From a virus: DNA of 22,702 bases. Shown here piece by piece: positions 673 through 21,963 of the stretch. The notes beneath the pieces are model-generated. The model had not been told where the DNA came from and made no database searches. It saw nothing but the letters and a program-made list of their open reading frames with translations. The stretch is taken from IMG/VR virus record IMGVR_UViG_3300045973_000114, positions 1 to 22,702 of that record. One strand, given 5' to 3'. The translations under genes were made by a program, and so were the position numbers. Every line of letters starts with the position of its first letter. Position 1 is the first letter of the stretch.

Positions 673-1413
673 TTATTCCTCATCATCAATTGAATAATTA
701 TTACTAATAGGTTCGTTTTTTCTTTCTTTATATATTTTAGTTATTCTTTTTATAAAAGACTCAAAATTTTTAAAATATTCCGATTCTTCGCCAGTTGAAT
801 TAATTTCAAATCTATTTAAATCTCTGTCATAATAAAAATATATTCCTACATGATATAATGAATCTGAATAATTTTTATAGAAGTCGCTATATAGTTTGTT
901 ATTCTTTTTTATTCTTTCAAACTCAAATTGTTCCTTTTTATATATATAATTGTATTCTCTTCTATTTTTTTCGATAAATTCTAAAACACGTTTTTTACAT
1001 TCATCTGGAATTAATTTAATGTGGTTATACACATCCAATTCATTTTCATATTTACTGCCGGTTGGTTGTACATCAAATGGATTTCCAATTCCCTTTAATG
1101 TGTGGTATCCATTTTCATTTGCCCAATTAAAATCGCCTTCATAGTTTGTTTTAAACAAATATGTAAATCTAATTTTTTTCCCTCCTCGGAATATAAATCT
1201 TACTAATAATCCTTGTGATGACCACGTATCAAATCCACATTTACCGGTAGAACACCAATGGGTTCCTTTACCATACATTTTAGCAGACATTTGGGATTTA
1301 GGAATAAGACAAATGATATTATTATCCCGATATATAATTTCAGTTTCTTCTTTAAACTGACCACTTAGTTCAGATAAATCTTTTAATTGAGATTCGGTGA
1401 TTAATATTTTCAT
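673..1413 (-). CDS. Phage protein with N-terminal leader peptide and WC-motif domain
   Basis: I do not recognise a named family for this 246-residue protein. It starts MKILITESQLKDLSEL, a short amphipathic leader shared in style with several neighbours. A central region has GKGTHWCSTG at about 48-57, followed by an aromatic stretch and a beta-rich segment (LLVRFIF). A similar WC-plus-aromatic-plus-beta arrangement occurs at about 255-290 of the 588-residue protein encoded at 5017-6783. From memory, comparable 'T-x-WC' domains recur in large phages without known function. The C-terminal 100 residues are charged and probably helical. The start is fixed by an ATATTTAT box five bases upstream. 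A role in the virion is inferred only from the leader and the neighbourhood. Confidence 0.65.
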   Translation of the reverse strand: MKILITESQLKDLSELSGQFKEETEIIYRDNNIICLIPKSQMSAKMYGKGTHWCSTGKCGFDTWSSQGLLVRFIFRGGKKIRFTYLFKTNYEGDFNWANENGYHTLKGIGNPFDVQPTGSKYENELDVYNHIKLIPDECKKRVLEFIEKNRREYNYIYKKEQFEFERIKKNNKLYSDFYKNYSDSLYHVGIYFYYDRDLNRFEINSTGEESEYFKNFESFIKRITKIYKERKNEPISNNYSIDDEE

Positions 1414-1418
1414 ATAAT

Positions 1419-1426
1419 ATAAATAT
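1419..1426 (-). promoter_or_regulatory. TATTTAT box of the 246-residue WC protein
   Basis: The coding strand reads ATATTTAT, then five bases, then ATG. This matches the boxes at 4306-4313 and 6789-6796 in both sequence and spacing. Confidence 0.5.
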
Positions 1427-1430
1427 AACG

Positions 1431-1535
1431 AACAAAGAGTTCTTTTGGAACTCCTTGCCGAGATTTATTGGAACAACCTCCTTTTCGTTAAGAATAAGTT
1501 ATCATCTTTCGGTGACCAAACCTAAGATTCTTCTT
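1431..1535 (-). ncRNA. Candidate small structured RNA in the 1414-1559 gap
   Basis: On the minus strand an ATATTTAT box (1536-1543) is followed at once by a stem. Bases 1527-1532 pair with 1490-1495 (AAGAAT/ATTCTT) and 1519-1523 pair with 1496-1500, with a three-base bulge. About 40 bases further on there is a second hairpin, 1448-1453 with 1437-1442 (GAGTTC/GAACTC), followed by a short T-rich tail. No ORF of useful length lies between. This could be a small RNA of about 100 bases or a structured leader of the gene at 673-1413. No known RNA family is recognised. Confidence 0.25.
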
Positions 1536-1543
1536 ATAAATAT
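1536..1543 (-). promoter_or_regulatory. Orphan TATTTAT box
   Basis: This is a perfect ATATTTAT on the minus strand with no coding start close downstream. The next start codon is about 120 bases away and has its own box. It could start the candidate structured RNA. Confidence 0.4.
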
Positions 1544-1559
1544 CACGAAAAATTATTTA

Positions 1560-2984
1560 TTAAGTATTTCTATTGGTAATTCTATTTACTTTATTTGAAT
1601 TTGTCATATTTTGAGTTCTTTGATTTACCCTTTGTTGTGCGGGATTAAGTGTCGGATTAGTCATCGGTTGTAATCCTTGTTTTGGTGACGTAAATTGTCC
1701 GGTATTTACCTGTGCAGGTCTATTATTAATTTGTGGGTTATTTGCCCCTTGTTCATGATTTGGTGTTATGGGTGACATAGATGGTTCACCGTTTGTTGAT
1801 GATCCTAAATATTCGTTTTTATATGTATTCCACATATTAGTTGTTCTCGGGCCGTATGTGCCAAAACCATGTTGAACATTTCCTTGTAATGTACCGTACT
1901 TATTATGCCATCCCGGGTGATTTTTATCTAACCAATTTTGGAAATTTTGAACTCCGGTAGTATCTTTAAGTTCTGGGGGAATTTGTACCGTTGGAGCAGG
2001 TGTTGTACCTCCGGGTACAGGTTTTTTATCATCAGGATTTACAGTATCTTTTACCGTGGTTAATGTATTATTAACAAGGTCTCGAAGTGGACGGTATATG
2101 TATTCCCAATCACTTTGTGAGTCCATATCGCCAGAAATCCATTTATATAAATTACCTCTTTGTTTTTCGAATGTATCTATTAATGCAAGAAAATCGGGTA
2201 CAGTTTTAAGTGATTGAAAAACACTTGCAAGATCTTTATCATTTGTACCAATACCGTATATGTCATCATAAACTCTATCAGATAACGCAACTATTTCACC
2301 ATCGCTTAATCCTCTAGGAAGTTTAGATATTTTTTCACGATTTGTTGTACAATAATCAAATAATTTTTTAACTTTATCGTTTGAATCTCCACTTGTAGCT
2401 AGCCAATATACTAATGCTCCAACAGCAATAACACCAACACCAATTCCAGTTGCGGCTAATCCAGAAATTCCAAGTCCAAGAAATCCGGCACCTACTGCGG
2501 CAGTAGACGCTCCGGCTTCAACTGCGGCAACTGCGGTTGCCCCTTCAGCGGTGGCGAGAGCGGTTGCTTCACCTCCGGCTAGGGCACCACCTTCAGCGGT
2601 GGCGAGAGCGGTTGCTTCACCTCCGGCTAGGGCACCACCTTCAGCGGCGGCCGATCCGGTTGTTGTCGATACCCATGGTGATCCGTATAATGATGAGGTA
2701 TTTCCCACGTTCGCAACTTCACCTGCGGTATTCGCTACCTTACCTGCGTTTCCTAATTTTGATGCGGCATTTGCGGCTCTACTATTTTTTATATAGTCAT
2801 AACCTTTTTTTAATCCATTAAATGCTGGCTTAGCCCCTGCTCCGGCTACCATTCCAGTAGGAAAATCATTACCTTGTTCGTTAAGAATTGTTTTATTTTG
2901 AACTAACGTTTTTGACGGGTCGTAGATCATTCTTAATTTAATTTCAGATATAATTTCTTCCGGTGTTCTTTCCAATTTTCTCAT
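1560..2984 (-). CDS. Putative virion membrane protein with annexin-like and peptidoglycan-binding-like regions
   Basis: This 474-residue protein has several parts. Residues 1-37 form a leader ending in ILNEQ. Residues 44-160 are Ala/Gly-rich and include two perfect copies of the 16-residue unit AEGGALAGGEATALAT. A long hydrophobic Gly/Ala segment at about 163-196 is a probable membrane span. Residues about 226-303 contain GIGTND followed by helical heptads, which resembles one annexin repeat. Residues about 343-393 (FQNWLDKNHPGW, then FGTYGPRTTNMWNTY) resemble a peptidoglycan-binding-type domain. The tail from about 394 is rich in Pro, Asn and Gln. This fits a virion protein that meets the cell envelope during infection, but the function is inferred. 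The similarities are read by eye and are weak to moderate. Confidence 0.6.
   Translation of the reverse strand: MRKLERTPEEIISEIKLRMIYDPSKTLVQNKTILNEQGNDFPTGMVAGAGAKPAFNGLKKGYDYIKNSRAANAASKLGNAGKVANTAGEVANVGNTSSLYGSPWVSTTTGSAAAEGGALAGGEATALATAEGGALAGGEATALATAEGATAVAAVEAGASTAAVGAGFLGLGISGLAATGIGVGVIAVGALVYWLATSGDSNDKVKKLFDYCTTNREKISKLPRGLSDGEIVALSDRVYDDIYGIGTNDKDLASVFQSLKTVPDFLALIDTFEKQRGNLYKWISGDMDSQSDWEYIYRPLRDLVNNTLTTVKDTVNPDDKKPVPGGTTPAPTVQIPPELKDTTGVQNFQNWLDKNHPGWHNKYGTLQGNVQHGFGTYGPRTTNMWNTYKNEYLGSSTNGEPSMSPITPNHEQGANNPQINNRPAQVNTGQFTSPKQGLQPMTNPTLNPAQQRVNQRTQNMTNSNKVNRITNRNT
2543..2638. repeat. Perfect 48-bp tandem repeat, two copies
   Basis: Bases 2543-2590 and 2591-2638 are identical, and the first few bases of a third copy follow at 2639. 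The unit is 16 codons long, so copy-number change would stay in frame. It encodes the Ala/Gly-rich repeat before the membrane span of the 474-residue protein and is much more GC-rich than its surroundings. Confidence 0.9.
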
Positions 2985-2998
2985 TATTTTGTTTTTAT

Positions 2999-3006
2999 AT
3001 AAATAT
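2999..3006 (-). promoter_or_regulatory. TATTTAT box of the 474-residue protein
   Basis: ATATTTAT on the coding strand, 14 bases before the ATG. Confidence 0.4.
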
Positions 3007-3010
3007 GTAA

Positions 3011-3310
3011 TTATTTCAATTGATTTGCGTGACCTCTGGTTAATTTAGATCCAACAGTATCAGACCATTTGGTTACGTCTAATTGATTTGCCGGGCCTCT
3101 GGTTAATCCAGATTCCCAATGACCAACTTCAGGATAACCCTCCGGGGCAGTTTTAGACGATGATGTTGTTAATGTAGATTCACCCGCAGTTGATATTGAT
3201 GGTTCAGATGCAACTTCCGGGGTCGTAGTTTCAACCTCATCGATTTCTTTTTTTACTCCATGGGATTTTAGTATGTTTGATAATTGTCTTTCTGTAATTT
3301 GTACTTTCAT
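3011..3310 (-). CDS. Small phage protein with leader peptide and LTRGxANQL repeats
   Basis: This is an unrecognised 99-residue protein. It begins MKVQITERQLSNILKS, closely similar in style to the 246-residue neighbour's start. Residues about 26-55 are low-complexity and rich in Ser, Thr, Glu and Pro. The C-terminal third holds two copies of LTRGxANQL, each preceded by a Trp-containing stretch (GHWESG and TKWSD). The repeat is also visible in the DNA, with a 26-base segment recurring 63 bases apart (3019-3044 and 3082-3107) with three mismatches. The protein looks like a short virion-associated linker or binding peptide. Its start is supported by an ATATTTAA variant of the upstream box, four bases before the ATG. 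Function is unknown. Confidence 0.6.
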   Translation of the reverse strand: MKVQITERQLSNILKSHGVKKEIDEVETTTPEVASEPSISTAGESTLTTSSSKTAPEGYPEVGHWESGLTRGPANQLDVTKWSDTVGSKLTRGHANQLK

Positions 3311-3314
3311 TTTT

Positions 3315-3322
3315 TTAAATAT
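3315..3322 (-). promoter_or_regulatory. Variant TATTTAA box of the 99-residue protein
   Basis: ATATTTAA on the coding strand, one mismatch to the common box, four bases before the ATG. Confidence 0.35.
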
Positions 3323-3332
3323 ACGTTAAAAT

Positions 3333-3701
3333 TTATTCATCATAAATTGTTGAATCCTTCTTAGCATAAAGTTTTATAAATTGTCCGGCTTTAGCGTTTG
3401 CTTCGTCTTCAATTTCTCCCCCGATATCTGGCGGTTTTACTTTTAATCTACCTTGTTCATATTGTTTATGATGAGTAAGTTCATGTGCTATTGATCTCAT
3501 TATATCAACTAAGAAACGATTTTTTCCATTAACATGAATAACTTTTTCATCAGCATCATAATCATAATTGGCTGTAGTTCTTAAATTACCCTTACCATTT
3601 TGAATATCGATCTGAGGTGGGTTTTTAATTTCCAGTTCTTCTCTAACGAATTTAGCGAAGTTGTATAATTTTTCTTTTTTATCTTTGTCTAAAAATCCCA
3701 T
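3333..3701 (-). CDS. Small zinc metallopeptidase (HExxH)
   Basis: This 122-residue protein is a probable zinc-dependent peptidase. HELTH is at residues 73-77. A downstream acidic helix, EIEDEANAKAG at about 96-106, could supply the third glutamate ligand, as in gluzincin-like enzymes. The N-terminal part (NFAKFVREELEIKNPPQI) and a central beta hairpin (KVIHVNG) match the usual lead-in of small phage and IrrE/SprT-like metallopeptidases. It has no signal peptide and lacks the leader peptide of its neighbours. The ATG comes two bases after the stop codon of the upstream M23 gene, so the two are probably co-transcribed and translationally coupled. The substrate is unknown; virion maturation or cell-wall entry are possibilities. 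Confidence 0.75.
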   Translation of the reverse strand: MGFLDKDKKEKLYNFAKFVREELEIKNPPQIDIQNGKGNLRTTANYDYDADEKVIHVNGKNRFLVDIMRSIAHELTHHKQYEQGRLKVKPPDIGGEIEDEANAKAGQFIKLYAKKDSTIYDE

Positions 3702-3703
3702 AA

Positions 3704-4300
3704 TTAAGATATATGATCAGGTCTTATTGATATCCCGGAGGGAGTTAATGTTTCGTAATGTAAATGTGGAACATTTGAAGTTCCTCTGTGTGGGTCGTTT
3801 TGTCCTCCACCGGTATAACCAATTAACTGACCCTGTTTAACTTTATCTCCTTTTCTTACCACCCAATTTTTCAAGTGACAATATTTTGTATGTAATGTTT
3901 CGTGATCGATTAAAACATATCCGCCACAACTATTTGGCGATGTGTCTCTAGCGTCGAGTACAGTACCCTCAGCCGGAGCGAATACGTGAGACCCCGAAGG
4001 AGCCGCAAAATCAATACCATTATGATTTGTGTTTTTGCCTTTTATTGGGCCAAAATCTGTTAATATTTTTGCTTCTTTTCCTAATGGATGTAACCATTCA
4101 ATTTCTTCCTCATCTTTAGGTTGGGTATCATTAGGCCCACCCGGTTGATTTGGTTGTTTCAGTATAAAACCATCATCTGACGATTCCTCAAAATATTTTG
4201 CAAACTTTTCGAATTCGGGACTAACTTTTGCATAGCTCCCATCTTCATTCAATTTGTTAAACAATTTATTTATTTGATCTTCTCGTAATTTAATTTTCAT
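3704..4300 (-). CDS. M23 family peptidoglycan endopeptidase
   Basis: This is a lysostaphin-type zinc endopeptidase that would cut peptide cross-links in peptidoglycan. With the start used here the protein has 198 residues. The M23 core runs from about 70 to 198: NHNGID gives His93 and Asp97, YCHL gives His142, and PHLHYE gives His179 and His181, which is the complete catalytic and zinc set. Residues 1-20 (MKIKLREDQINKLFNKLNED) form the leader peptide shared with neighbours, and 21-68 are an acidic linker. An upstream in-frame ATG at 4318 exists, but the conserved ATATTTAT box would lie inside that extension, so the ATG at 4300 is preferred. It is probably a virion-borne or late lytic enzyme, given its position divergent to the GH19 endolysin. 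Confidence 0.85.
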   Translation of the reverse strand: MKIKLREDQINKLFNKLNEDGSYAKVSPEFEKFAKYFEESSDDGFILKQPNQPGGPNDTQPKDEEEIEWLHPLGKEAKILTDFGPIKGKNTNHNGIDFAAPSGSHVFAPAEGTVLDARDTSPNSCGGYVLIDHETLHTKYCHLKNWVVRKGDKVKQGQLIGYTGGGQNDPHRGTSNVPHLHYETLTPSGISIRPDHIS

Positions 4301-4305
4301 ATTAC

Positions 4306-4313
4306 ATAAATAT
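4306..4313 (-). promoter_or_regulatory. TATTTAT box of the M23 gene
   Basis: ATATTTAT on the coding strand, five bases before the ATG at 4300. It supports that start over the ATG at 4318. Confidence 0.5.
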
Positions 4314-4366
4314 CTCATTTCTATTAAAACAAGTCAATTATAAATCAGATAATACTTCAAATTGAA

Positions 4367-4374
4367 ATATTTAT
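4367..4374 (+). promoter_or_regulatory. TATTTAT box of the GH19 endolysin
   Basis: ATATTTAT on the plus strand, four bases before the ATG at 4379. Here the box is oriented with a plus-strand gene, which shows that it follows gene direction. Confidence 0.5.
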
Positions 4375-4378
4375 ATGT

Positions 4379-4987
4379 ATGAGTATAAATATAGAAAATT
4401 TAAAGGGACATATCCCCGATAATGTGTATCCACAAATTATGGATGCCGTTGTTGATTTTGAATTAAACACACCGTTGAGACTCGCACATTTTTTAGGACA
4501 ATGTAGTCATGAATCTATGGGGTTTAAAGTAACACAAGAAAATCTAAATTATTCATCAGATGCTCTTAAAAGAGTATTTGGTAAGTATTTCCCTGATGAT
4601 CTTGCTGACGATTATGCTAGACAACCAGAAAAAATTGCTAATCGTGTCTATGCAAATAGAATGGGCAATGGTGATGAAGATTCTGGTGATGGGTGGAGTT
4701 ATCATGGAAGAGGATATATTCAATTGACAGGAAAAGATAATTATCAATCCTTTGGTGATACTCTTGATAGTAGTATTGATATTATAGGTAATCCCGATTT
4801 GGTATCAACCGATTATCCATTATTATCTGCCGGTTGGTTTTTCCATACAAATGGGTTACAAAAAATTGCGGATATTGGTGCTACCGATGACGTTGTAACA
4901 AAAATTACCAAAAGAATAAATGGTGGTATTAATGGACTGGCCGAAAGAATATTGTTATTTAATAAATTTTACAAGTTGTTATCATAA
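4379..4987 (+). CDS. GH19 family endolysin (chitinase-like lysozyme)
   Basis: This 202-residue protein is a compact glycoside hydrolase family 19 domain, the chitinase/lysozyme fold used by many phage endolysins to cut glycan strands. The hallmark FLGQCSHES is at about 38-46, with Glu45 as the likely general acid. NRVYANRMGNGDE at about 88-100 and the strongly conserved WSYHGRGYIQLTGKDNY at about 106-122 follow. Its length is that of a single catalytic domain. There is no signal peptide or separate cell-wall-binding domain, so it would need a holin or similar to reach the wall. It is transcribed alone on the plus strand, divergent from the M23 gene and ending at a shared bidirectional terminator. 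Confidence 0.92.
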   Translation: MSINIENLKGHIPDNVYPQIMDAVVDFELNTPLRLAHFLGQCSHESMGFKVTQENLNYSSDALKRVFGKYFPDDLADDYARQPEKIANRVYANRMGNGDEDSGDGWSYHGRGYIQLTGKDNYQSFGDTLDSSIDIIGNPDLVSTDYPLLSAGWFFHTNGLQKIADIGATDDVVTKITKRINGGINGLAERILLFNKFYKLLS

Positions 4988-5018
4988 AAAAAGGGGAGAA
5001 TTAATCTCCCTTTTTTTT
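4986..5018. terminator. Bidirectional terminator between the endolysin and the 588-residue gene
   Basis: GGGAGA (4994-4999) pairs with TCTCCC (5005-5010) around a five-base loop, flanked by seven A's on the left and eight T's on the right. It therefore works on both strands. It lies between convergent genes and touches the stop codon of the minus-strand gene. Confidence 0.88.
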
Positions 5019-6783
5019 ATCTTAATCTTTTTAATGATCCGGATATTAAAGCTTCGTCCCCTTTTTCTTTTGATAAAAAAGTTCCCTCAAGTTTATTTGT
5101 TGATTTTGGATTAAATGCGGTCATTGGTAATAACCAATAAAAATAATCACCTCCATTTTGAAATGACGACACGTATCTATTTAACACCAACGTTTTTCTA
5201 TCTGATGTAATAACTAACATAGATGTTGATTTCATATAATCGATAGGTTTAATCCAATCAATAGTATCGATATTCATGATACCCATACGTTGAGATTGTT
5301 TATCGCTATACATAACATTTTTACTTGCTGGGTCAGTGTAAACTTCAGCATATGATACACCAAGGATAGCCTTTTTAAGATCTAATACGCCATTCTTTAT
5401 TCCTAATTGAGTTTTTAAAATTGAATTATCTAAGAAACCATATAATCCGGGATTTTCATTTTTTATGAGATCAATCATTCCGAATGGTTTCGCAGCAATG
5501 GTACATTTAAATCTAGTTTTATAATCATCAAGAGTTGTTCTGGCAATATAACTTTTTCTTAAATTGTCTTCTTCAGTATATGGTAATACTCTAAATGCCC
5601 GGGGAGAATTAATTAATCTACCACTTTCAATATATCTTCGTTGTATTAATAAATTTTGAATTGCAAAATCATGTGGATCACCTTCTCTAAAAACAATTTG
5701 GTCAAGACGAACTTCTTCTTGTTCTTTACGGGTTTTAGGGATAATTCTAAATAGTGTTTCTTTTCCTTGTAGTTGTGGATATATTTGTAATAGGTTTTCC
5801 CATGTTTGTTGTTGTTGATCACCATTTCTTCTTGGAGTAATCACAAATGGGCCTTCATATCTATTTTTTGTTAAATCAACGACCGATATAACTGAGACAT
5901 AGTAGTTGTCATCTTCAGGTCTATTACGGTCTAAAACGAAAAAAAATGACCTTCTATCACGATATGATTCGAATAGGTTTGTTCCACCCCCCGGGGGTAC
6001 TGTTATACACCATGGATTACCATATTGAACGTTATTATATTTTGCAACCAATAGATGTTGTAATCTACCTAATGCGATTGATTCGTCTTTACCCTCAATT
6101 CTGAAAACAGTAAATCCGTTTTCATTTATGAGTCTGTTATACGATCTATTCCATTTTGAATAAGCGTTTCTAAATCTTTCTTCAATTGTTGTTGTGTCCG
6201 GATTTCCAATGTCATAATCTAAATCCCCAATAACTTGTGCGTGATTAACTCTATCCATAAAAAATTCCATAACCCCCCACGGATATTTTGTAATATCTTT
6301 GATGGTACTTATGTCTGAAACATTAAATTCAGGAAATGCTTCATGTAATGCAACGAATTCTGGTTGGTTTATATAATGAGGGTCAACATTTGGATCCACG
6401 TATGTTCTAAATCCGTTTTTTCTACGATTAAATGTAATGATAACATCATCCATGTTCTCTTCGGTTAATGCCGGATTTTCCTCTTTCCATTTACGTTTAA
6501 GTAAAGCGATAGGTGAAAGAGGTTTTACTCTGGATTGTTGGGTTGGTTGACCTTGATTTGCTTCCGGATGTTGTGTTTCGGGATCAATAATATCTTCCTC
6601 TTCACGTTCAGGATTTTCCGGAACTTCAGGTTCAGGTGGTATACCTTGAAGTGGTTCGCCATTATTGGCGTGATCGAGATCTTCTGGAGCTTCATCATGA
6701 TTTAACATGTCATCGTCTTCTTCATCACCGTTCATGTTGGCTTGTTCTTGCAGTAATCGTTGTAAAATATCTTCGAATTTCAT
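5017..6783 (-). CDS. Large phage protein with leader, acidic linker and WC-motif domain
   Basis: This is an unrecognised 588-residue protein. Residues 1-14 (MKFEDILQRLLQEQ) are a short amphipathic leader like those of its neighbours. Residues about 17-80 are strongly acidic and rich in Pro, Asn and Gln, probably disordered. A folded region follows, with GNPWCIT at about 255-261, then an aromatic stretch and a beta-rich FFFVLDR segment at about 280-286. This recalls the WC region of the 246-residue protein at 673-1413. The C-terminal half is mixed alpha/beta with no catalytic motif I can name. No membrane span is visible. Leader, length and neighbourhood suggest a virion or head-internal protein, by inference. 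The ATATTTAT box five bases upstream supports the start. Confidence 0.65.
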   Translation of the reverse strand: MKFEDILQRLLQEQANMNGDEEDDDMLNHDEAPEDLDHANNGEPLQGIPPEPEVPENPEREEEDIIDPETQHPEANQGQPTQQSRVKPLSPIALLKRKWKEENPALTEENMDDVIITFNRRKNGFRTYVDPNVDPHYINQPEFVALHEAFPEFNVSDISTIKDITKYPWGVMEFFMDRVNHAQVIGDLDYDIGNPDTTTIEERFRNAYSKWNRSYNRLINENGFTVFRIEGKDESIALGRLQHLLVAKYNNVQYGNPWCITVPPGGGTNLFESYRDRRSFFFVLDRNRPEDDNYYVSVISVVDLTKNRYEGPFVITPRRNGDQQQQTWENLLQIYPQLQGKETLFRIIPKTRKEQEEVRLDQIVFREGDPHDFAIQNLLIQRRYIESGRLINSPRAFRVLPYTEEDNLRKSYIARTTLDDYKTRFKCTIAAKPFGMIDLIKNENPGLYGFLDNSILKTQLGIKNGVLDLKKAILGVSYAEVYTDPASKNVMYSDKQSQRMGIMNIDTIDWIKPIDYMKSTSMLVITSDRKTLVLNRYVSSFQNGGDYFYWLLPMTAFNPKSTNKLEGTFLSKEKGDEALISGSLKRLR

Positions 6784-10900: not shown

Positions 10901-12175
10901 ATGAAAAAGGGAAAAATATTCGTACAAATAGCAAGTTACCGTGACCCTCAATTATCTCACACTATCCGAGATTGTATTGAAAAGTCCAAATACCCAAATA
11001 ATTTAGTCTTTTCAGTTGCTTGGCAACATTCAATTGATGACGAATGGGATTATGATTTATACGAATTCCGAGGAGATTCCCGTATTCAACTTATTGACAT
11101 CGACTATCGAGATGCTAAAGGTGCTTGTTGGGCAAGAAATTTACTACAACAAAAATACAATGAGGAAGAATACACTCTTCAAATTGATTCACATACCAGA
11201 TTTTTACCAAATTGGGATAACGAATTAATTAAAATGTACAAAGGGTTACAGAAAAAAGGTGTTAAAAAACCATTATTAACTGCATACGCACCATCATTCG
11301 AACCAACGAATGATCCGGAAGGTAGAGTTAATGTTCCATGGAAAATGAACTTCGACCGTTTTACCCCGGAGGGGTTTGTATTTACTATGCCCGCATCAAT
11401 TGACAATTTTAAAGAATTAAAAGAACCAGTTCATGCTAGATTTTATTCGGCACATTTTGCGTTCACAACCGGTGATTTTGTGAAAGAAGTACCTCATGAT
11501 CCAGAATTTTATTTCCATGGTGAAGAAAATTCAATTGCTACCCGAGCATTTACATGGGGATATGATTTATATCACCCGCACAAAGTAATCTTATGGCATG
11601 AATATACCCGGAATGACAAAATCAAACAATGGGATGACGATCCACAATGGGTAGCACGAAATTCGGCATCACATAAAAAATGTAGACAACTATTTGGTAT
11701 GGATGGTGAAGTCCAAGCAACCACATTTGGTAAATATGGTTTTGGAACGATAAGAACGTTAGATGATTATGAACGTTACGCCGGAATTTCATTTAAGTAT
11801 CGTGGTGTACAAAAGTACACAAGTGATAATAATTTAGCCCCGAACCCGGAGATTAAAGATCCTGAAGAATATAGAAATTCATTCCATTCCTTATTTAAAC
11901 ATTGTATTGATTTATATGCATCTAATTTTATTGAACCGGATTATGACTTCTGGGTTGTATCGTTCGAAGAATTGGATGGAACAGTTGTGTATCGACAAGA
12001 TGCTGACGCTGAAGAAGTGAAACGTTTAATTGCCAGTTCAAAAAGTGACAGTTGGATAAGATTGTGGAGAGAATATACCGGTAGGATGCCGGATAAATGG
12101 GTAGTATGGCCACACTCCGTATCAAAAGGATGGTGTGAAAGAGTTGAAACAATATTAAACCAAACAATTAGTTAA
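10901..12175 (+). CDS. GT60-like (GlcNAc-type) glycosyltransferase, copy 1
   Basis: This 424-residue protein is a probable GT-A glycosyltransferase of the GlcNAc family (Pfam PF11397, CAZy GT60). The founder enzyme of that family adds GlcNAc to hydroxyproline of Skp1 in Dictyostelium. The family start IFVQIASYRDPQL is at about 6-18. A donor-site strand and conserved arginine sit in GACWARN at 74-80. QIDSHTRF at about 94-101 is the metal/donor motif in place of DxD. Further blocks are YAPSFEPTNDP, the acceptor-side HFAFTTGDF, and EENSIATRAFTWGYDLYHPH with WHEYTR. A C-terminal extension ends in GWCERVE. It is paralogous to the next gene and the first gene of a tightly packed plus-strand operon. 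The acceptor here is unknown. Confidence 0.85.
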   Translation: MKKGKIFVQIASYRDPQLSHTIRDCIEKSKYPNNLVFSVAWQHSIDDEWDYDLYEFRGDSRIQLIDIDYRDAKGACWARNLLQQKYNEEEYTLQIDSHTRFLPNWDNELIKMYKGLQKKGVKKPLLTAYAPSFEPTNDPEGRVNVPWKMNFDRFTPEGFVFTMPASIDNFKELKEPVHARFYSAHFAFTTGDFVKEVPHDPEFYFHGEENSIATRAFTWGYDLYHPHKVILWHEYTRNDKIKQWDDDPQWVARNSASHKKCRQLFGMDGEVQATTFGKYGFGTIRTLDDYERYAGISFKYRGVQKYTSDNNLAPNPEIKDPEEYRNSFHSLFKHCIDLYASNFIEPDYDFWVVSFEELDGTVVYRQDADAEEVKRLIASSKSDSWIRLWREYTGRMPDKWVVWPHSVSKGWCERVETILNQTIS

Positions 12176-13483
12176 ATGGTAAAAAAGAAAATAGTAAAAA
12201 AAGAAAGACGGGAAGAACGAATTTTAGTACATTTACCCGCATATCGCGAGCCAGAATTAGTACCAACCATTAAAAGTGCCATGGAAAATGCTGAGTATCC
12301 GGAAAGATTAGTATTTGGTATTTGTAGACAATATAATCCAGAGGATAAATTTGATGACCTTAGTGAGTTTGAAAATGATCCAAGAATTAAAGTATTTAAT
12401 ATGTTGTATACCGAAGCAAAAGGTTTACCATATGCCCGGGCAATTATTAATGAAAAAATATTAACGGATGAAGAATTCGTTTTACAATTAGATTCTCACC
12501 ATAGGTTTGATAAAAATTGGGATTCAACATTAATTAATTGGTATTACGATTTGAAAGACGAGGGATATAATCCATTAATTTGTGGGTATTTACCGTATTA
12601 CGATCCGTATAACGATCCGGAAAAACGAGTATTAGAACCTTGGTTATCAGAAGCCGCAAGTTTTTATCCACACGGAACAATTTTTATTCGTCCAACCGGA
12701 ATTCCAAATTGGAGAGAATTAACAAAACCTTTTCCTGCAAGATTTATTTCCGGACATTTCTGCTTCGGCCCGAATAAATGGGCTAAGGATGTTAGACATG
12801 ATCCAGACATTTATTTTAGTGGCGAAGAACTCAACCTAACCATTAGATCATTTACACACGGATATGACCTATTTCATCCCCACAGACCGATTATTTGGCA
12901 CGCAACCATGAGAGTTGAACGTAGTGGCATGTTAGTGTGGGATGACCAAAGTAAACGTGGTGATGACATGTGGTGGAGACAACAAGATATCGGAAGATCA
13001 AAAATAAGACAATTATTAAGAACTGAAGATAATGGATTTGATTTAACCGGTTATGATATTGGTACTGTAAGAACAATCCGGGACTATGAAAAATATGCCG
13101 GTATCCACTTTAAGAAAAAATCATTTCAAAAATATACAAAAGAAAACAAATTTCCACCAAATCCAGTAATTGAAGATGAAATTGAATGGGAAAACTCATT
13201 TATGTTTTCATTTTATCATTTAGTCACAGTAACCCGGGAAAATTTACCCGGAACCGATTATTCAAGTATATTGGTTGCATTTGATGATGAAAACGGTAAT
13301 GGTATAAATAGTAGGAGTATAACCGGAATACAATTGGAGAACTTTTTGAAAGATGGAACTCCGATTCATTATGAAGAAATGTTCATGACCGATGTTCGTC
13401 CAACTAGATTAGTATTTTGGGGTTATAGTGACATAAGAGGTTGGGCTGAAAGGTTTGAAATTCAAATACAATACGTAGACTAA
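12176..13483 (+). CDS. GT60-like (GlcNAc-type) glycosyltransferase, copy 2
   Basis: This 435-residue protein is a tandem paralogue of the gene before it. PAYREPEL at 21-28, QLDSHHRF at 104-111, GYLPYYDPYNDP, HFCFGPNKW, and EELNLTIRSFTHGYDLFHPH with WHATMR match the first copy block by block. The shared C-terminal part also matches, with GTVRTIRDYEKYAGI and a final GWAERFE. Its ATG directly follows the stop codon of copy 1, so translation is probably coupled. The N-terminus is unusually basic (VKKKIVKKERREER). The copies are clearly diverged, which points to different acceptors or successive steps rather than redundancy. The activity is predicted from the family only. Confidence 0.85.
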   Translation: MVKKKIVKKERREERILVHLPAYREPELVPTIKSAMENAEYPERLVFGICRQYNPEDKFDDLSEFENDPRIKVFNMLYTEAKGLPYARAIINEKILTDEEFVLQLDSHHRFDKNWDSTLINWYYDLKDEGYNPLICGYLPYYDPYNDPEKRVLEPWLSEAASFYPHGTIFIRPTGIPNWRELTKPFPARFISGHFCFGPNKWAKDVRHDPDIYFSGEELNLTIRSFTHGYDLFHPHRPIIWHATMRVERSGMLVWDDQSKRGDDMWWRQQDIGRSKIRQLLRTEDNGFDLTGYDIGTVRTIRDYEKYAGIHFKKKSFQKYTKENKFPPNPVIEDEIEWENSFMFSFYHLVTVTRENLPGTDYSSILVAFDDENGNGINSRSITGIQLENFLKDGTPIHYEEMFMTDVRPTRLVFWGYSDIRGWAERFEIQIQYVD

Positions 13484-13484
13484 T

Positions 13485-14447
13485 ATGGACAAAAAATTAT
13501 TATTAGTACATTTTGTTGTCGGGCCAACTTATAAGGATAGAATGATTTACAATTTACTAACATATCCTTCTTATAGTTTTTTTGATGTATTAATTTTAAC
13601 CAACGACGTTGAATATTTTTCATCAATATCACATATGATAAATGTTTTTGTTGTTGATATTGACGAGGTTAGAAAAGATTATCCATGGTCTATTGATTTA
13701 GAAACCGTACCGAAAGAAAAAATTAGTGAAGAACTCTATGCAAAAGAAATGACATCATCATGGGTGAAAGTACCGACATTAATGGAAAGGTTCGCATTTA
13801 TATGGAAAAACGCCCAAAATTATGATGGATTTCTTTTTCTAAATAGTGACGTTATTCCCGTTATGAATGAAACTCATTATGAGAAAATTTTAGACTATTT
13901 CGTGAAACCAATATCCATAAAGGGATATGAAGATAAAATAATTTTTATTCCAAGTGGAGGTGTAAATGGCGACGTTAAACTACCTAATTTAGAAGAAGAT
14001 ACACTGGAAATAAATAATCGATATAAAATAACGGATAAGCCATTAGATTTTCGGGCATTTATTCATAATGACGGTAATTTTAGAACATTTAAATTTCCTG
14101 ATAAATCAAAAATAAAACCATTTTTTGACATATTAAATACAATTGTATATGAAGTTAAAGTTGCAAAACGATTACCAAGATTAGGAGTTCACACAATATG
14201 GGATCTCCATTCCGAACAGATAGTTACAATTGCATTAAATTTAAGTGGCGCTGTTGGCTTACCTATGTCACCGTTCTCAGGAATTGAAGCCGGTGATGTT
14301 TTTAGACTTGAATCATATCCTGAAGATAAATTTTGGTTATCAGATATTATGACCCCATCAAACATAAGTAAACAGGACTTTATAGAAAAAAATAGTATCA
14401 AATTAAATGAATATTATCAAAATAATTTTCCATATAAAAACAAATGA
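13485..14447 (+). CDS. GT-A-like glycosyltransferase
   Basis: This is a 320-residue protein. LLLVHFVVG at the N-terminus starts a Rossmann-like nucleotide-sugar fold. A strand with FLFLNSDVIP at about 116-125 looks like the metal-binding DxD-type motif, and IIFIPSGGVNGD follows. Later HTIWDLHSEQI could supply donor or metal contacts. The layout suggests a GT-A enzyme, but I cannot assign a CAZy family. It starts one base after the previous stop codon, and its own stop lies within a heptamer repeat shared with the next gene's start. There is no signal peptide or membrane span, so it is a cytoplasmic enzyme like the others in this operon. Confidence 0.65.
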   Translation: MDKKLLLVHFVVGPTYKDRMIYNLLTYPSYSFFDVLILTNDVEYFSSISHMINVFVVDIDEVRKDYPWSIDLETVPKEKISEELYAKEMTSSWVKVPTLMERFAFIWKNAQNYDGFLFLNSDVIPVMNETHYEKILDYFVKPISIKGYEDKIIFIPSGGVNGDVKLPNLEEDTLEINNRYKITDKPLDFRAFIHNDGNFRTFKFPDKSKIKPFFDILNTIVYEVKVAKRLPRLGVHTIWDLHSEQIVTIALNLSGAVGLPMSPFSGIEAGDVFRLESYPEDKFWLSDIMTPSNISKQDFIEKNSIKLNEYYQNNFPYKNK

Positions 14448-14461
14448 CAAATGACAAATGA
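14441..14461 (+). repeat. CAAATGA heptamer repeat x3 at a gene junction
   Basis: Three perfect copies of CAAATGA lie end to end. Copy 1 holds the TGA stop of the upstream glycosyltransferase. Copy 2 holds the ATG of the FkbM gene at 14451. The ATGs of copies 1 and 3 lead to short dead-end frames. A unit of seven bases is not a multiple of three. Confidence 0.9.
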
Positions 14462-15161
14462 CTTTTTAAAATTATTAAAGCCACAAAACGTATTTCTCAC
14501 TAAGAAAAGAATCGGCCCGCCGGAAGATGGTGGATATGTGATGCCAGAATTCGTATTAGAAAACTGTTCCGCCCTGTTTACTTATGGCGTTGGATATGAC
14601 GAACGATATGAAGCTGAATTTTGTAAACTTTACAATAAACCTGCATACCTTTTTGATCATACGATTGGTCGTGAACCTTGGTCGGGTAACGGAATGACGT
14701 TTAAACCCGAGGGATTAGGTTATGGCGAAAACTGTAAAGAAGTGTTTGAACATTATACTGAACTTGGTATTACCGGTGATATCTTCTTGAAGATTGATGT
14801 TGAAGGATACGAATATGAGTATTTCACAAAAAGTGATACCTCAAAATTAGGTGATTATGTAATGGGTCTCAGTTTAGAAGTACATTGGTTTGAACACGGT
14901 ACTAACCGGGAAAACCTAGAAAAGATCTTATTAAATCTTAGTGAACATTTCATTCTTTGTCATGTACACGCAAACAATTGGGGATATATCCACAATTTTG
15001 ACGGGGTTGATGTACCGATTGTTCTTGAACTTTCATTTATTAACAGAAAATACGTGGATGCTTACGAACCGGACAATCAAGATTACCCAATCGAAGGTTT
15101 AGATATTCCAAATAATCCTAATGCTCCGGATTATCCGTTGACATTTTTAAAAACGTTATAA
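14451..15161 (+). CDS. FkbM-family methyltransferase
   Basis: This 236-residue protein is a probable SAM-dependent O-methyltransferase of the FkbM type, a family that often methylates sugars. RIGPPEDGGYVMPE at about 20-33 is the usual entry motif. LFTYGVGYDERYE at about 42-54 holds the SAM-binding turn, and IFLKIDVEGYEYEYF at about 111-125 is the family's K-x-D-x-EG-x-E signature. LSLEVHWFEH follows. The C-terminal part ends in a Pro/Asp-rich stretch. The start is at the second of three ATGs in the CAAATGA repeat, the only one that opens the frame. Within this operon it probably caps or decorates a glycan. Confidence 0.85.
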   Translation: MTNDFLKLLKPQNVFLTKKRIGPPEDGGYVMPEFVLENCSALFTYGVGYDERYEAEFCKLYNKPAYLFDHTIGREPWSGNGMTFKPEGLGYGENCKEVFEHYTELGITGDIFLKIDVEGYEYEYFTKSDTSKLGDYVMGLSLEVHWFEHGTNRENLEKILLNLSEHFILCHVHANNWGYIHNFDGVDVPIVLELSFINRKYVDAYEPDNQDYPIEGLDIPNNPNAPDYPLTFLKTL

Positions 15162-15164
15162 TAA

Positions 15165-16028
15165 ATGGTTATCGATAGAAGCGACGATATTACAAAGGAA
15201 TTTTATAACTTTAAAGCGGTACATGGTCATGCAGGTATTGCATTTTTAACCGAAAATAAATTTGACCATGTACCTAACATTTCGAAAGATATTCGAGTTG
15301 TTACAATATCAAATAATCTATTTCATAGTCCATTTATAAAACCATATCTTGACAATCCGGATAAACTTAATTTCACTCCGATCATTCTTGATAAACCAAG
15401 TTTAAGGTGTGGAATTGATTTAATTGAACCATTATATGAATACATTGAAAACATCAAAGAAAAATATACATTATATATTGATGCCTATGATACCGTATTA
15501 ATGAGTGATATTGACGATCCACAAGGGATGTTGGACATGTATGATTGTAAATTATTATTCAATGCTGAAGATGGTTACGGGTTTCCGGATCATGGTTGTG
15601 TTGATAAATCATATGTAAAAAAATATGCCGAATTTCATAATTGCGACGAACACATTTATTACGTAAAAAATAGAGATTTAGTATCAAAAATTAATACCGA
15701 AAATTTACAAAAACGTATTCAATGTTTTCCACTTACAAGATCTTTAAACTCGGGATTATACTTAGGGGAAACTGAGTATTTAAAGGAGATTTTGACAATT
15801 ATGATGCAATATATGTATGACGATCCCACTAAGGGTTATCCATTTGGCGAAATCGAAAATCAAAAACTTTGGCAGTATTTACAAAGTATTTGTGAAAATG
15901 AAGAAATACAAATTGACTACATGAATTTATACTTTTTATGGAATCACGATCATAAATTTACATACCCGGTTGATCATTGGGAACACTTCAATTATTTTAA
16001 TAAATTACAAACAATAAAAACCAAATAA
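15165..16028 (+). CDS. PLOD-like glycosyltransferase (procollagen galactosyl/glucosyltransferase type)
   Basis: This 287-residue protein resembles the glycosyltransferase domain of PLOD/LH3-type and GT25-related enzymes, which in animals and mimivirus glycosylate hydroxylysine of collagen-like proteins. YTLYIDAYDTVLMSD at about 101-115 contains the D-x-YD metal/donor motif. LLFNAEDGYGFPD at about 130-142 matches the family's 'F-x-AE-x-x-x-W/F-PD' block. RSLNSGLYLGE at about 192-202 matches 'LNSG-x-x-G'. A late LWNHDHKF with aromatic neighbours would sit near the acceptor. No hydroxylase domain is attached, unlike animal LH3. The neighbours are glycan enzymes and the gene spacing is three bases. 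The acceptor in this phage is unknown. Confidence 0.75.
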   Translation: MVIDRSDDITKEFYNFKAVHGHAGIAFLTENKFDHVPNISKDIRVVTISNNLFHSPFIKPYLDNPDKLNFTPIILDKPSLRCGIDLIEPLYEYIENIKEKYTLYIDAYDTVLMSDIDDPQGMLDMYDCKLLFNAEDGYGFPDHGCVDKSYVKKYAEFHNCDEHIYYVKNRDLVSKINTENLQKRIQCFPLTRSLNSGLYLGETEYLKEILTIMMQYMYDDPTKGYPFGEIENQKLWQYLQSICENEEIQIDYMNLYFLWNHDHKFTYPVDHWEHFNYFNKLQTIKTK

Positions 16029-16029
16029 A

Positions 16030-16851
16030 ATGTCAAAAACAATAGTTACTTTAACTACAATTCCATCAAGATTAACCGAATCATACGGCGATGATTTCAG
16101 ATCGTGTATTAAATCTCTTTTAGATCAATCCGTTACTGATTATGAGTTGAATATGAATATTCCGTATTTCTTGAAAACAACCGGGGAGGAATATATATTA
16201 CCGGAATCATTAATTAAACTGGAAAGTGAAACCGAAAATTTCACTATTTTTAGAACAGAAGATTACGGCCCGGGGACTAAACTCATCCCAACCGTAGAAA
16301 GATCAACCGATCCCGAGGATATTATCATTGTTGTTGACGATGATTTAGTCTACCACCATGATTTAGTTATGGTACAAAGAGAAAATCAAACCAAATGGCT
16401 TGAATCAATTGTCGGTTATGACGGATTAAGATCCAAAGATAACCTCTTCGGTGATGTGCGTGACTACTTTTTTAGTTCTAATTATCGAACAAGTAGAGTG
16501 GATATTCTTCAACACTACAAATCTGTATCATATAAACGAAGATATTTTGATGATGATTTCATTCAATTTACCAAAGATTATTTCTCGTGGAGTGATGACC
16601 TTATGATTGCCGCTTATTTCTCAATGAAAAGAAGAGAAAGAATTGCAACATTTCATGAATCTGATAGAAATTTTGTTTCATTGGAAGAATGGCAATTATA
16701 TGGTGGTGTATTTTCATTCCCGGTTTTAAGACACACTCAGCACGACAGTCTTGAAGGTTGTAACCAATTCAGACATTTGAGTATTGACGATAATAGTGGA
16801 GAACTTTTTAAGTTCATAGATCATGGATATGACCCAAAACCAGAAGTATAA
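16030..16851 (+). CDS. GT-A-like glycosyltransferase with DYGPGTKL motif
   Basis: This is a 273-residue protein. The N-terminus (IVTLTTIPSRL at 5-15, then CIKSLLDQ) is that of a GT2-like enzyme. DYGPGTKLIPTVE at about 78-90 is a recognisable signature of a glycosyltransferase group found in phages, bacteria and eukaryotes. VVDDDLVYH at about 101-109 is the DxD metal site. FSWSDDLMIAAYFSMK at about 184-199 corresponds to the acidic acceptor-side helix. No membrane span is seen. It lies one base after the PLOD-like gene and is followed by a 24-base gap before the large fusion protein. The sugar and acceptor cannot be told from sequence. Confidence 0.78.
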   Translation: MSKTIVTLTTIPSRLTESYGDDFRSCIKSLLDQSVTDYELNMNIPYFLKTTGEEYILPESLIKLESETENFTIFRTEDYGPGTKLIPTVERSTDPEDIIIVVDDDLVYHHDLVMVQRENQTKWLESIVGYDGLRSKDNLFGDVRDYFFSSNYRTSRVDILQHYKSVSYKRRYFDDDFIQFTKDYFSWSDDLMIAAYFSMKRRERIATFHESDRNFVSLEEWQLYGGVFSFPVLRHTQHDSLEGCNQFRHLSIDDNSGELFKFIDHGYDPKPEV

Positions 16852-16875
16852 TACTTAAAATTAAAATAGATACAA

Positions 16876-19800
16876 ATGAGTTTAAGCGAATTGATTAACA
16901 AATATGGTTCAGATAAAAATATAAGTGGGTACACCGAGTTATATGAAAAATTATTCGACCAAATAAAAAGAAACGTAACCGATATCTTGGAAATAGGTAT
17001 CGGTTCTGTTGACCCCGAAATGCCGAGTAGTTTTTGCGGAATTTATCAATATTTCCCTCATTATATGCCCGGAGCGTCATTACGTGTATGGAGAGATTAT
17101 TTTCCAAATGCACAAGTTTGTGGAATGGATATCGATCCAAAATGTGATTTTATTGAAGATAGAATAACTACCGTAATTTGTAGTTCAATGGATCTCGAAG
17201 CATGTGACAGATTATTAAAATCTTCAACATATGACTTCATTCTTGATGATGGTTTACATACCGGAGAAGCACAATTAAAAACTATTCAAAACCTATTCGA
17301 TAGAGTAAAAACCGGTGGATATTATATCGTTGAAGATTGTGGCGGTACGGCAATTGCTGATTTATTTACCAACCCAGAACGATTTAATGAGTTCAAAAAA
17401 ATTGCAAATGATCACGAATATTTTCTTAGAGGAAATGTCGCATTTATTAAAAAGAATTATAGTAAACGTGGGTTGATTGATACTTTCGATGAATTTATCC
17501 GAGATTACAATAAACCACCTGTATATGATGTGACAATACCTGAAGTATCAATACCGGAATATAAAACTATTTTTAGTAAGATCTATGACGATTATGGTTT
17601 TTTTGGGTCACAAGAAAGTCGTTCGGGTGATGGTAGTACCATAAATGCTACAATATTGATCCGGGAAAAAATTAAAGACTTGATCTATGATAAAAATATC
17701 AAAACCGTAGTTGATATCCCCTGTGGGGATTTTAATTGGATGAAAGAAATTGTTTTCAATTTTGATCATTATACCGGTGGTGATATCGTGGAGAAATGTA
17801 TTGAAGAAAATAATGATAAGTATGGAAGTAAACGAATTGAGTTTATTCATTTCGATTTGGTAACCGATAAAATCCCCGCAGGGGATTTATTAATTGTCCG
17901 GGATGTTATTGGTCATTTTCCTCTTGTTGATGGTGAAAAGATCGTTAAGAACATAATAGACAGTAATTGTAAATACTTGTTGGCGACATCGTGGTATGAT
18001 CCAACAAATGAAAATTTTTACCGGGAACATGTAAACGAAAACGTTGACTATGGTAGATTTTACTTTCTAAATTTAAGAAGTGCTCCATTTAACTTACCTG
18101 AACCTGAAATGTATATTGATGAGGGGGTTTTTTATGACGGAGATGGTAAAAGAAAAGGATTAGGATTATGGAATTTGGACAAGGTTCGTCAATGGTTTAC
18201 AGTTCCAACGGTTGAGGAAAAAATAGTTGTGAATAAAATTATTGAACCGGTTGACATGGATGTGTTAGACATTGATATTGTTTCACCGACATTTCATTAT
18301 ATTGGTCAACATAAAACAGGAACACAAGTAGTTCAAATAGGTGCAATGGATGGACTTAGTTATGACGATACCAGAGCATTTCTTGATATGTACAATTGGG
18401 ATGCTTTATTGGTTGAACCGATTCCAGATATGTTTGCTGAGTTGAAAGAAAACTTTAAAACCAGAACCAATTACAAATTTGAACAAAGTGCGGTTACAAC
18501 ACATGACGGTGAAGTGACTATGTTAACAATACCATTAGATGCTATAGTTAAAGAAAATTTACACCCGGGATATAAAGGAATGAGTGCAATATATCCATTG
18601 AAAAACGGATTTGGAAATGAATATCATAGAGATGTTGAAGTAAAGGCCAACCATGGTGTAGATATTTCTGTTCCGGCAATAACTTTTAACACTTTATGTG
18701 AAAAACATGACATTAAAAAAATTGACATTTTAATTTGTGATGCTGAGGGTCATGATTGGATTATTTGTGATCAATTAGATTTCAAAAAATTCCGTCCAAG
18801 TTTTGTGAGATTTGAATACTTTAATTTAACCGATGACGAAAAGGTCTTAATAGTTAAAAAATTAAAGGACAACGGATATGTTGTTTCGATAGTTAACGGA
18901 CAAGATGTTGACGGTGTGGATCAATCATTATGGAATGAAATGGGTATGATTAGCAGTCTTGAAAAAAAGGTTAAAATTGAAGGAGAATTCAATATATTCG
19001 ATTATGTGAATAAATTGACAAAAGAAGAAAAAGAAGAATTGATTACGTTCATAAATAAATCCCCGGAGATTGAGGTATTAAATAAAGATCTTACTATTGT
19101 AACCGGGTTGTGGAATATTAATAGAACCGGAAGAGATTTCAGTCATTACATCGAACATTTTAAGAATTTTTTGGACATTCCAAATTATATGTTCATTTAT
19201 ATTCAAAAGGAATATGAATATTTAGTCTGGGAAAAACGAAGTAAAAAGAATACATGTGTTAAAATTTTTGAACTGGAAGATATTAAAAGTCTTTATGACC
19301 CCTTTTGGAATAAAACACAAGAGATCAGAACCGATCCTACTTGGCTAAATTCAACCGGGGAAAATGGTTGGTTAATTAATAGTCCACAAGCAACATTGGA
19401 ATATTATAATCCTATTGTTCAATCAAAAATGTTTTTACTTAATGATGCAACAATTTGGAATCCATTTAACAATGAATATTTCATTTGGTTAGATGCAGGT
19501 ATTACGAATACCGTTTACAACAAATATTTGACTGAAGAGAGAGCGTTGGATAAAATTATTCCATATCTGAGTAATTTCCTCTTTTTATCATATCCATATG
19601 ATGCTAATGATGAAATTCATGGTTTTAATTTTAAATCAATGAATCGATTAGCCAATGATGTTGTTAAATGTGTATGTAGAGGTGGATTATTTGGCGGTAG
19701 TAAAGAGTCAATAAATCAAGCAAATAGTACTTATTACTCAACCTTAAATGCAACATTAAACAATGGTTTAATGGGAACGGAAGAAAGTGTATTCTCTATT

Positions 19801-20772: not shown

Positions 20773-21407
20773 TGGTAACATTAACAAAAGAAGATTTAAT
20801 AAATTTTGAAACAGAGATTGGTGATCTATTTAATTCAGCACAGATTAGATCACCGATTCATCTGTACCACGGAAATGAAGATTTTATGTTTGAATTATTT
20901 AAGGACATAGATATTGAAAACGATTGGGTTTGCGGTACTTGGAGAAGTCATTATCAGGCTCTTTTAAAAGGTATTCCCCCGGAAGAATTGAAAGAACTTA
21001 TTATGAAAGGTAAATCCATGGTATTAAACGTACCGGAGCATAAATTCATATGTAGTTCTATCGTTGGGGGTATTCCCTCAATCGCGGCAGGAATTGCTCT
21101 ATCTATCAAACTACAAGATAAAACTGACAAAGTTTGGTGTTGGGTTGGCGATATGACCGCAGAAACGGGGGCATTTCATGAAGCATATAAATACAGTTTA
21201 AATAATGACCTTCCAATTACGTTTATTGTGGAAGATAATAGAAAATCTGTATGTACACCCACATCAATTGTGTGGGGTAGAGAAACCCCGTATTATTTGA
21301 ATTCCGAATATCAGGGTGGAATTTTAAGACAAAAGAATTTGATATACTACCAATATGTCAACTATAAATATCCCCACGCGGGAGCAGGTAAAAGAGTCCA
21401 ATTTTAA
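20772..21407 (+). CDS. TPP-dependent enzyme, E1-alpha-like (PP domain only)
   Basis: This 211-residue protein matches the diphosphate-binding (PP) domain of E1-alpha/transketolase-type enzymes. IRSPIHLYHGNEDF at 25-38 and GTWRSHYQALLKGI at 55-68 match E1-alpha 'RSHYHALLKG'. The TPP/Mg motif is GDMTAETGAFHEA from 126, with DN at 155-156, about 30 residues later as usual. Typical E1-alpha subunits exceed 320 residues, so this is a minimal domain. It overlaps the previous gene by one base (TAATG) and the next in the same way, so the three are translationally coupled. Its partner is the PYR-domain gene just downstream. The substrate is unknown; transfer of a two-carbon or acyl unit for a special sugar is one possibility. 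Confidence 0.85.
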   Translation: MVTLTKEDLINFETEIGDLFNSAQIRSPIHLYHGNEDFMFELFKDIDIENDWVCGTWRSHYQALLKGIPPEELKELIMKGKSMVLNVPEHKFICSSIVGGIPSIAAGIALSIKLQDKTDKVWCWVGDMTAETGAFHEAYKYSLNNDLPITFIVEDNRKSVCTPTSIVWGRETPYYLNSEYQGGILRQKNLIYYQYVNYKYPHAGAGKRVQF

Positions 21408-21943: not shown

Positions 21944-21951
21944 TTCGAAAT

Positions 21952-21959
21952 CTATTTAT
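21952..21959 (+). promoter_or_regulatory. TATTTAT box before the last, partial gene
   Basis: CTATTTAT on the plus strand, four bases before the ATG at 21964. It is the only such box I noticed inside the glycan region, at a point where translational coupling stops. Confidence 0.45.
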
Positions 21960-21963
21960 CTAT

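Follow-up and report, generated by a model that had tools for sequence, protein, structure and literature searches.

Five minus-strand genes between positions 673 and 6783 of a 22,702-base virus record (IMG/VR IMGVR_UViG_3300045973_000114, G000 in our set; hereafter the window) encode proteins with different bodies, each preceded by a short N-terminal leader that ends in [LI]-x-E. We consider it highly probable that these leaders are T4-style capsid-targeting propeptides, cut by the prohead protease of the phage. The evidence, all of it from sequence, comprises the modularity of the leaders, their sharp boundary at [LI]xE, their exchange at that boundary, selection at the level of the peptide, a co-encoded protease of the Peptidase_S77 family, and a matching site in the capsid protein. 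The original prediction for this stretch, a T4-like capsid-targeting peptide cut after (L/I)xE, gains support from the enrichment of [LI]xE, from the swaps at the leader junction and from the capsid propeptide site.

In the mechanism that we propose, the N-terminal part of the leader would bind the scaffolding core or the shell interior during prohead assembly, and the attached protein would be carried with it into the prohead. A T4-type protease (gp21/Peptidase_S77), which would also remove the major capsid propeptide, would then cut after the terminal [LI]-x-E. The mature cargo would be freed inside the head, packaged with the DNA, and presumably delivered with it into the host at infection.

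Leaders in the window and across viral genomes

The leaders and bodies of the five genes, and a sixth gene lying among them, are as follows (all on the minus strand; here and below a slash within a sequence marks the predicted cut):

1369-1413 (-): leader of cargo 1, class II, MKILITESQLKDLSE, predicted cut after LSE, next residue L
673-1368 (-): body of cargo 1, WC-domain protein (LYxDxxx..YGxGTxWC), gene 673-1413
2877-2984 (-): leader of cargo 2, class IV, MRKLERTPEEIISEIKLRMIYDPSKTLVQNKTILNE (end portion SKTLVQNKTILNE), predicted cut after LNE, next residue Q
1560-2876 (-): body of cargo 2, Ala/Gly-rich repeat protein containing a hydrophobic stretch, gene 1560-2984
3236-3310 (-): leader of cargo 3, class II, MKVQITERQLSNILKSHGVKKEIDE, predicted cut after IDE, next residue V
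3011-3235 (-): body of cargo 3, small protein with GYPEVGxWESGxTRGxANQ repeats, kept in relatives
3333-3701 (-): SprT-like metallopeptidase-like gene inside the cluster, without a leader, assigned from its HELTHHxQ motif
4244-4300 (-): leader of cargo 4, class II, MKIKLREDQINKLFNKLNE, predicted cut after LNE, next residue D
3704-4243 (-): body of cargo 4, Peptidase_M23 (E=2.2e-23)
6745-6783 (-): leader of cargo 5, class VI-like, MKFEDILQRLLQE, predicted cut after LQE, next residue Q
5017-6744 (-): body of cargo 5, a large WC-domain-like body behind an acidic N-terminal region, gene 5017-6783

The five N-termini read as originally described, with the refinement that not all of them carry one leader. 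Three genes (673, 3011 and 3704) share the leader MK-x-x-[IL]-[TR]-E-x-Q-[LI]; those of cargo 2 and cargo 5 are unrelated to it in sequence and have only the [LI]xE end in common with it. This end, previously noted in several of the leaders, terminates 5/5, although the polar residue said to follow it is not general (L, Q, V, D and Q). In gene 3704-4300 the leader begins at the ATG that ends at 4300, six codons downstream of the listed start of the open reading frame. Pfam gave no match above the cut-off for the SprT-like gene 3333-3701.

As anticipated, the leader also occurs elsewhere, on hundreds of unrelated bodies. A collection search returned 339 non-redundant proteins of T4-like phages that combine the class II leader or a long form of the leader with unrelated bodies. 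Written as a degenerate DNA pattern, the class II leader matched 88 DNA stretches in the viral collection; the bodies range from ECF sigma factors and a DHH-like protein to zinc ribbons and lysozymes. The long form, MKK[IV]..RLTESDL, gave at least 120 matches there and its shuffled pattern 0, and reversed-pattern controls gave zero matches in 22 records. Among 84,980 bacterial and archaeal genomes there was a single leader match, on a 3.2-kb contig of a metagenome-assembled genome. One pattern match, on a RecA-like protein (L118, MAIRKKEFKFEDIKAKF), was judged a false leader. An unsupervised alignment of 148 leader proteins yielded the consensus MKIxLTESQLxxxxxxxIxE, with nothing conserved beyond it.

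The anatomy of the long form was analyzed in 205 non-redundant proteins. Their selection pattern stopped at residue 15, hence the conservation of residues 16-22 is not circular. The consensus is MKKI[IV]RLTESDLtrIVKRVIxE/, with E22 in 90% and [LIV]20 in 98.5% of the proteins; positions 1-22 are conserved except for 13 and 21, and positions from 23 onward are variable. Column entropy, 0.66 bit at E22, jumps to 3.23 at position 23 and stands at about 4.0 from position 29 on. Directly after the predicted cut, Q, S, N, E, D and G predominate.

The motif [LI]xE follows the leader in a fraction of 0.96 of long forms versus 0.40 in shuffles (z 11.7), and of 0.74 of short forms versus 0.35 (z 9.0); internal windows of the same proteins contain it in only 15-20%. 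The spacing controls [LI]E, [LI]xxE and [LI]xxxE showed no enrichment, nor did most other residues at P1, the position before the cut. The one clear exception among the residue controls was [LI]xK, whose enrichment in the long form stems from the IVKR core of that form. Counts made over whole genomes and independent of any leader pattern gave an excess of about 17-41 genes with an N-terminal [LI]xE[QSNGDATE] (four genomes, 256-295 kb).

Leader classes, leader exchange and cargo

At least six leader classes were seen:

Class I: MKKI[IV]RLTESDL..IVKRVIxE
Class II: MKIIITESQLKxL..LxE
Class III: MKKFIITEEEKxRILGMH...LxE
Class IV: LLMKYDxSKTLTEN...IxE
Class V: MNLQENIxRIKEMMGLxxE
Class VI: MKxLIRKILKE

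Homologous bodies bear different leaders or none, and the point of the swap lies at or beside [LIV]xE/. We compared 33 homologous pairs whose aligned stretch excludes the start of the leader, including a few long-range or partial alignments that test little. In 22/33 the partner shows [LIV]xE close to the corresponding position, and 3 partners were judged to begin at the site itself. Thus MKIIITENQLKQLINE/SGIRDINELLKRYKK pairs with MNMRKNLILE/SGIRDINKLAKRYNK (core LINE/SGIRDI versus MNMRKNLILE/SGIRDI), and MKILITERQYGLIQE/QWWLTFAEA with MKKIITLTESDLTRIVKRVIEE/QWWLAFAEA (ends LIQE/ versus VIEE/). A third body occurs as LLITE/KLGVPENI, MKKRIHE/SLGVPENI and LRLITE/AVGVPKGI, and a fourth as KLLKE/MEKDLISYE and, leaderless, as M-EDQDIIAYK.

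The window families behave in the same way. Homologues of the 99-aa protein (3011-3310) carry four other leaders, ending GELGE/Q, EMGE/Q, EIDE/Q and ELGE/Q, and its orthologue ends are VEE/Q and IDE/Q. In the 474-aa family (1560-2984) the ends are LLQE/Q, YLKE/Q, IFE/Q and ILNE/Q, and its homologues stand on three other leaders, each ending in [LI]xE/Q. M23 proteins have the junctions KLNE/S, GLNE/Q, IISE/G and GLNE/N. The homologue of cargo 5 in the syntenic relative G018 has the leader MKFNDLLFDIVTE/E. Separately, we noted tandem repeats (GGALAGGEATALATAE) around 2540-2660 of the Ala/Gly-rich protein 1560-2984, and, in record G006, a multicopy family (MKKIKLTESDLYRIVRKVLLEQEEEKRSFTFSPGAF and its relatives, at loci L144, L145, L146, L148, L149, L151, L152 and L155) whose scattered members all bear a class I leader.

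A Pfam search of the 148 leader proteins identified peptidoglycan hydrolases and peptidoglycan-binding proteins (phage lysozyme, phage tail lysozyme, M23, GH19, Tae4, LysM and PG_binding), two ECF sigma factors, and LRR and HD proteins; most of the proteins had no family, and the list held no DNA polymerase, terminase, capsid or portal family. Two ECF-type sigma factors with a class II leader, L133:18640-19203(+) ending LLE/N and L048:4743-5279(-) ending ILE/N, are candidates for virion-carried sigma factors.

The WC-domain family (LYxDxxxLxxxPLTxEASxKYGxGTKWCTT) is found in many leader phages at varying positions (L140, L154, L170, L269, L012, L028 and L090), and its W-C pair is invariant in 11/11 aligned members. 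The WC-domain proteins of the window (673-1413 and 5017-6783) had no Pfam match, the 588-aa protein had no close relatives in viral contig or phage collections, and the PDB held no convincing sequence relative of the WC-domain protein, whose AlphaFold2 model (pLDDT 64) gave no Foldseek match at E<=0.001. The jumbo Pseudomonas phage PA5oct encodes a protein distantly homologous to that of 673-1413 (28.6% identity over about 60 residues), although at an E of about 0.07 the homology is weak. The PA5oct protein, whose N-terminus is MKLFEVFTLYE/D, is annotated as a virion structural protein from electrospray ionization tandem mass spectrometry (ESI-MS/MS), an annotation that gives one independent, if weak, hint that tagged proteins are packaged.

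Head genes of the leader phages

Every leader record that reaches 232 kb (14/14) encodes Peptidase_S77, the family of T4 gp21, as do 31/55 leader records overall, compared to 4/20 random viral contigs. The 14 large records are not all independent, since the capsid proteins of G001 and G003 are identical at the N-terminus. The search for a prohead protease gene that the original prediction had called for was thus successful in every leader record of this size, and also in G018 (94 kb), the closest syntenic relative of the window, with 42-67% identity for most shared genes. G018 bears a T4-style block of portal (Portal_T4), S77 protease, scaffold-like protein and Gp23 capsid protein, and the propeptide site of this capsid protein, LINE/A, matches the leader ends.

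More broadly, the Gp23 sequences of leader phages have [LIV][NT]E/[AST] in 14/14 at the position of the T4 gp23 propeptide cut, the sites seen being LINE/A, LLNE/S, MLNE/S and VTE/T. As a separate observation, record G007 (268,739 bp) contains two T4-type head gene sets (portal, S77 protease and Gp23), at 26902-34946 and 230298-237899, which points either to chimerism of the assembly or to duplication of the head modules in this phage.

Several points weigh against reading the leaders as capsid-targeting propeptides. We infer the targeting, cleavage, packaging and injection of the tagged proteins. Head genes are missing from the window record, which is a fragment, and the S77 protease of its own phage is therefore deduced from G018. 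Among short leaders, 26% lack [LI]xE in the 14 residues scanned. The base rate of S77 in very large contigs is poorly measured, with one control above 150 kb, which was negative. Six leader records of 150-215 kb lack S77; 6/6 also lack the T4 portal, and the four of them that were tested all lack Gp23. They look like fragments because these other head genes are missing too, although they might have a different head type. Lastly, for lysozymes and GH19 proteins one would expect a place at the tail tip or a role as endolysins, and a location in the head leaves this part of the cargo unexplained.

Alternative explanations and known systems

The leaders might dock proteins on the prohead core, and many of the tagged proteins would then belong to the core or assist in assembly, to be digested or released in the manner of T4 gp67/gp68 and not injected. 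The protease would cut such proteins either way, and in T4 the same enzyme degrades gp22, gp67 and gp68 of the core (PMC9958956). However, many of the bodies are recognizable enzymes or regulators (M23, lysozymes, GH19, ECF sigma factors), and the enriched site lies at the leader boundary, with [LI]xE at only 15-20% in internal windows; we regard this explanation as unlikely.

Slightly less likely again is a localization or interaction tag for a target other than the head (the host membrane, a phage nucleus or RNA polymerase), in which [LI]xE would merely be the end of a helix. By eye, the leaders do resemble amphipathic helices, and the pointer to packaging is one weak homologue in another phage. 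Nevertheless, such a tag leaves unexplained why at least six unrelated leader classes have only the [LI]xE end in common, why leaders are swapped there, and why the same motif stands at the capsid propeptide site.

As the cause of the conserved start, a signal in the DNA or RNA (promoter or translation initiation region) is far less probable than either. A TATTTAT element, possibly a promoter or initiation element, occurs more often ahead of leader genes (32/57 versus 291/1224, p=4e-7). It has its peak at -13 to -11 relative to the ATG in G001, G004, G006, G007, G014, G018 and G022, and precedes the window genes that start at 1413, 2984, 4300 and 6783 (minus strand). However, this element is separate from the leader and also precedes other genes; the capsid gene of G018 is without it. 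Synonymous codon choice varies inside leaders much as it does in bodies, with amino acids conserved out to residue 22. This codon usage contradicts a nucleic acid signal as the cause, and places selection on the peptide. Chance likeness of lysine-, isoleucine- and glutamate-rich N-termini in AT-rich genomes has in its favor the strongly AT-biased codon usage of these phages, but it is scarcely credible given the shuffled and reversed controls and the 148-protein alignment, which keeps only the leader and its final E.

The known system closest to the capsid-targeting propeptides proposed here is that of T4, in which IPI, IPII, IPIII and Alt likewise carry, on otherwise unrelated proteins, a short N-terminal capsid-targeting sequence that ends in L/I-x-E and is cut by gp21. 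Like T4, the leader phages have a gp21-type protease, a gp23-type capsid protein, a gp20-type portal and a gp22-like scaffold. The resemblance to the leader of the T4 internal proteins is confined to M-K and the terminal I-x-E, and is too short for a test of homology. The T4 protease gp21 cleaves behind L/I-X-E, and the IPIII leader divides its tasks: targeting depends on residues 4 and 7, processing on residues 8 and 10 (PMC9026906). The leaders are built in a way that fits this division, with conservation in the N-terminal part and [LI]xE at the end. In T4, aspartate in place of the terminal glutamate stops cleavage while still permitting targeting. The T4 sequence is about 10 residues long and clearly conserved only between IPII and IPIII (PMC9958956), whereas most of the leaders described here have 11-36 residues; they form at least six unrelated classes and go with an N-terminal [LI]xE excess of about 17-41 genes per near-complete genome. 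On the tests that can be decided, the leaders thus appear to be of the T4 propeptide kind; what is new relative to T4 is their scale, the number of classes, and a cargo that includes peptidoglycan hydrolases and ECF sigma factors.

The phages phiKZ, 201phi2-1 and SPN3US also have many inner-head proteins with N-terminal propeptides cut after glutamate. The protease is a divergent gp21-like enzyme, and the diverged paralogues gp53 and gp54 have identical N-terminal 15 residues (PMC5694885, PMC9026906). Unlike the leaders, these propeptides end in S/A-x-E (phiKZ) or A-x-E (SPN3US), often exceed 100 residues, and belong to phages only distantly T4-like (PMC5694885, PMC9026906); leaders have I, L or V at P3, the first position of the cut motif, and with their length of mostly 11-36 residues do not conform to that type. 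In phage P1, the N-terminal 30 residues of DarB suffice to send a reporter to the capsid, a likeness to the leaders, but this signal concerns a single protein (residues 6-10) and no multi-class set of leaders is described (PMC9024508).

Among cultured T4-like relatives, Flavobacterium phage vB_FspM_immuto has an annotated prohead core protease and Gp23, and the leader MKKQILSEQFxRMQxLAGIITE/S on two different proteins, immuto35A_42 and immuto35A_187. It shares a cargo body with a leader phage, preceded there by MRLLELLRE/A and in L050 by MKIIITESQFNNLQLDE/F. Neither the class II nor the long-form leader occurs in the 150 kb of its genome scanned, and the first 50 kb of Microcystis phage Mel-JY01 contain no class I/II leader. 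Bare leader peptides searched by tblastn against phage isolates gave no match, for which the shortness of the queries may be the sole reason. The leader strings are absent from the relevant literature within the open-access reach of our search, subscription literature lying outside it; the work on capsid-targeting cargo within that reach dealt chiefly with T4, giant phages, P1 and crAss phages, and did not describe the leader system.

It is possible, at somewhat less than even chances in our estimate, that the leaders form a general modular code for cargo packaging, in which at least six unrelated classes would each be read by the prohead core and all be cut by one protease, and leaders would be swapped freely. 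The cargo would then include peptidoglycan hydrolases, numerous unknown effectors, and a virion-carried ECF sigma factor that redirects host transcription as soon as it is injected. The tagging of many unrelated proteins in uncultured T4-like phages suggests a general way to pack effectors in a virus particle for delivery to the host, and a leader familiar from a few T4 proteins would become an address label readable from sequence. Large T4-like phage genomes could thereby be scanned for head-carried, probably injected proteins, which otherwise requires virion proteomics on cultured phages, and the resulting cargo list would lead to unstudied phage effectors. A 2023 review called the way in which proteins localize to the T4 scaffolding core still mysterious (PMC9958956); hundreds of natural leaders in several classes offer variation for testing this mechanism, and may also serve for loading proteins into phage heads.

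Away from the leader genes, positions 10901-22702 of the window hold a long plus-strand cluster with glycosyltransferase-like and methyltransferase-like genes. The first gene of this cluster has 42-46% identity to relatives in Xanthomonas phage XacN1 and Stenotrophomonas phages CM1/RAS14.

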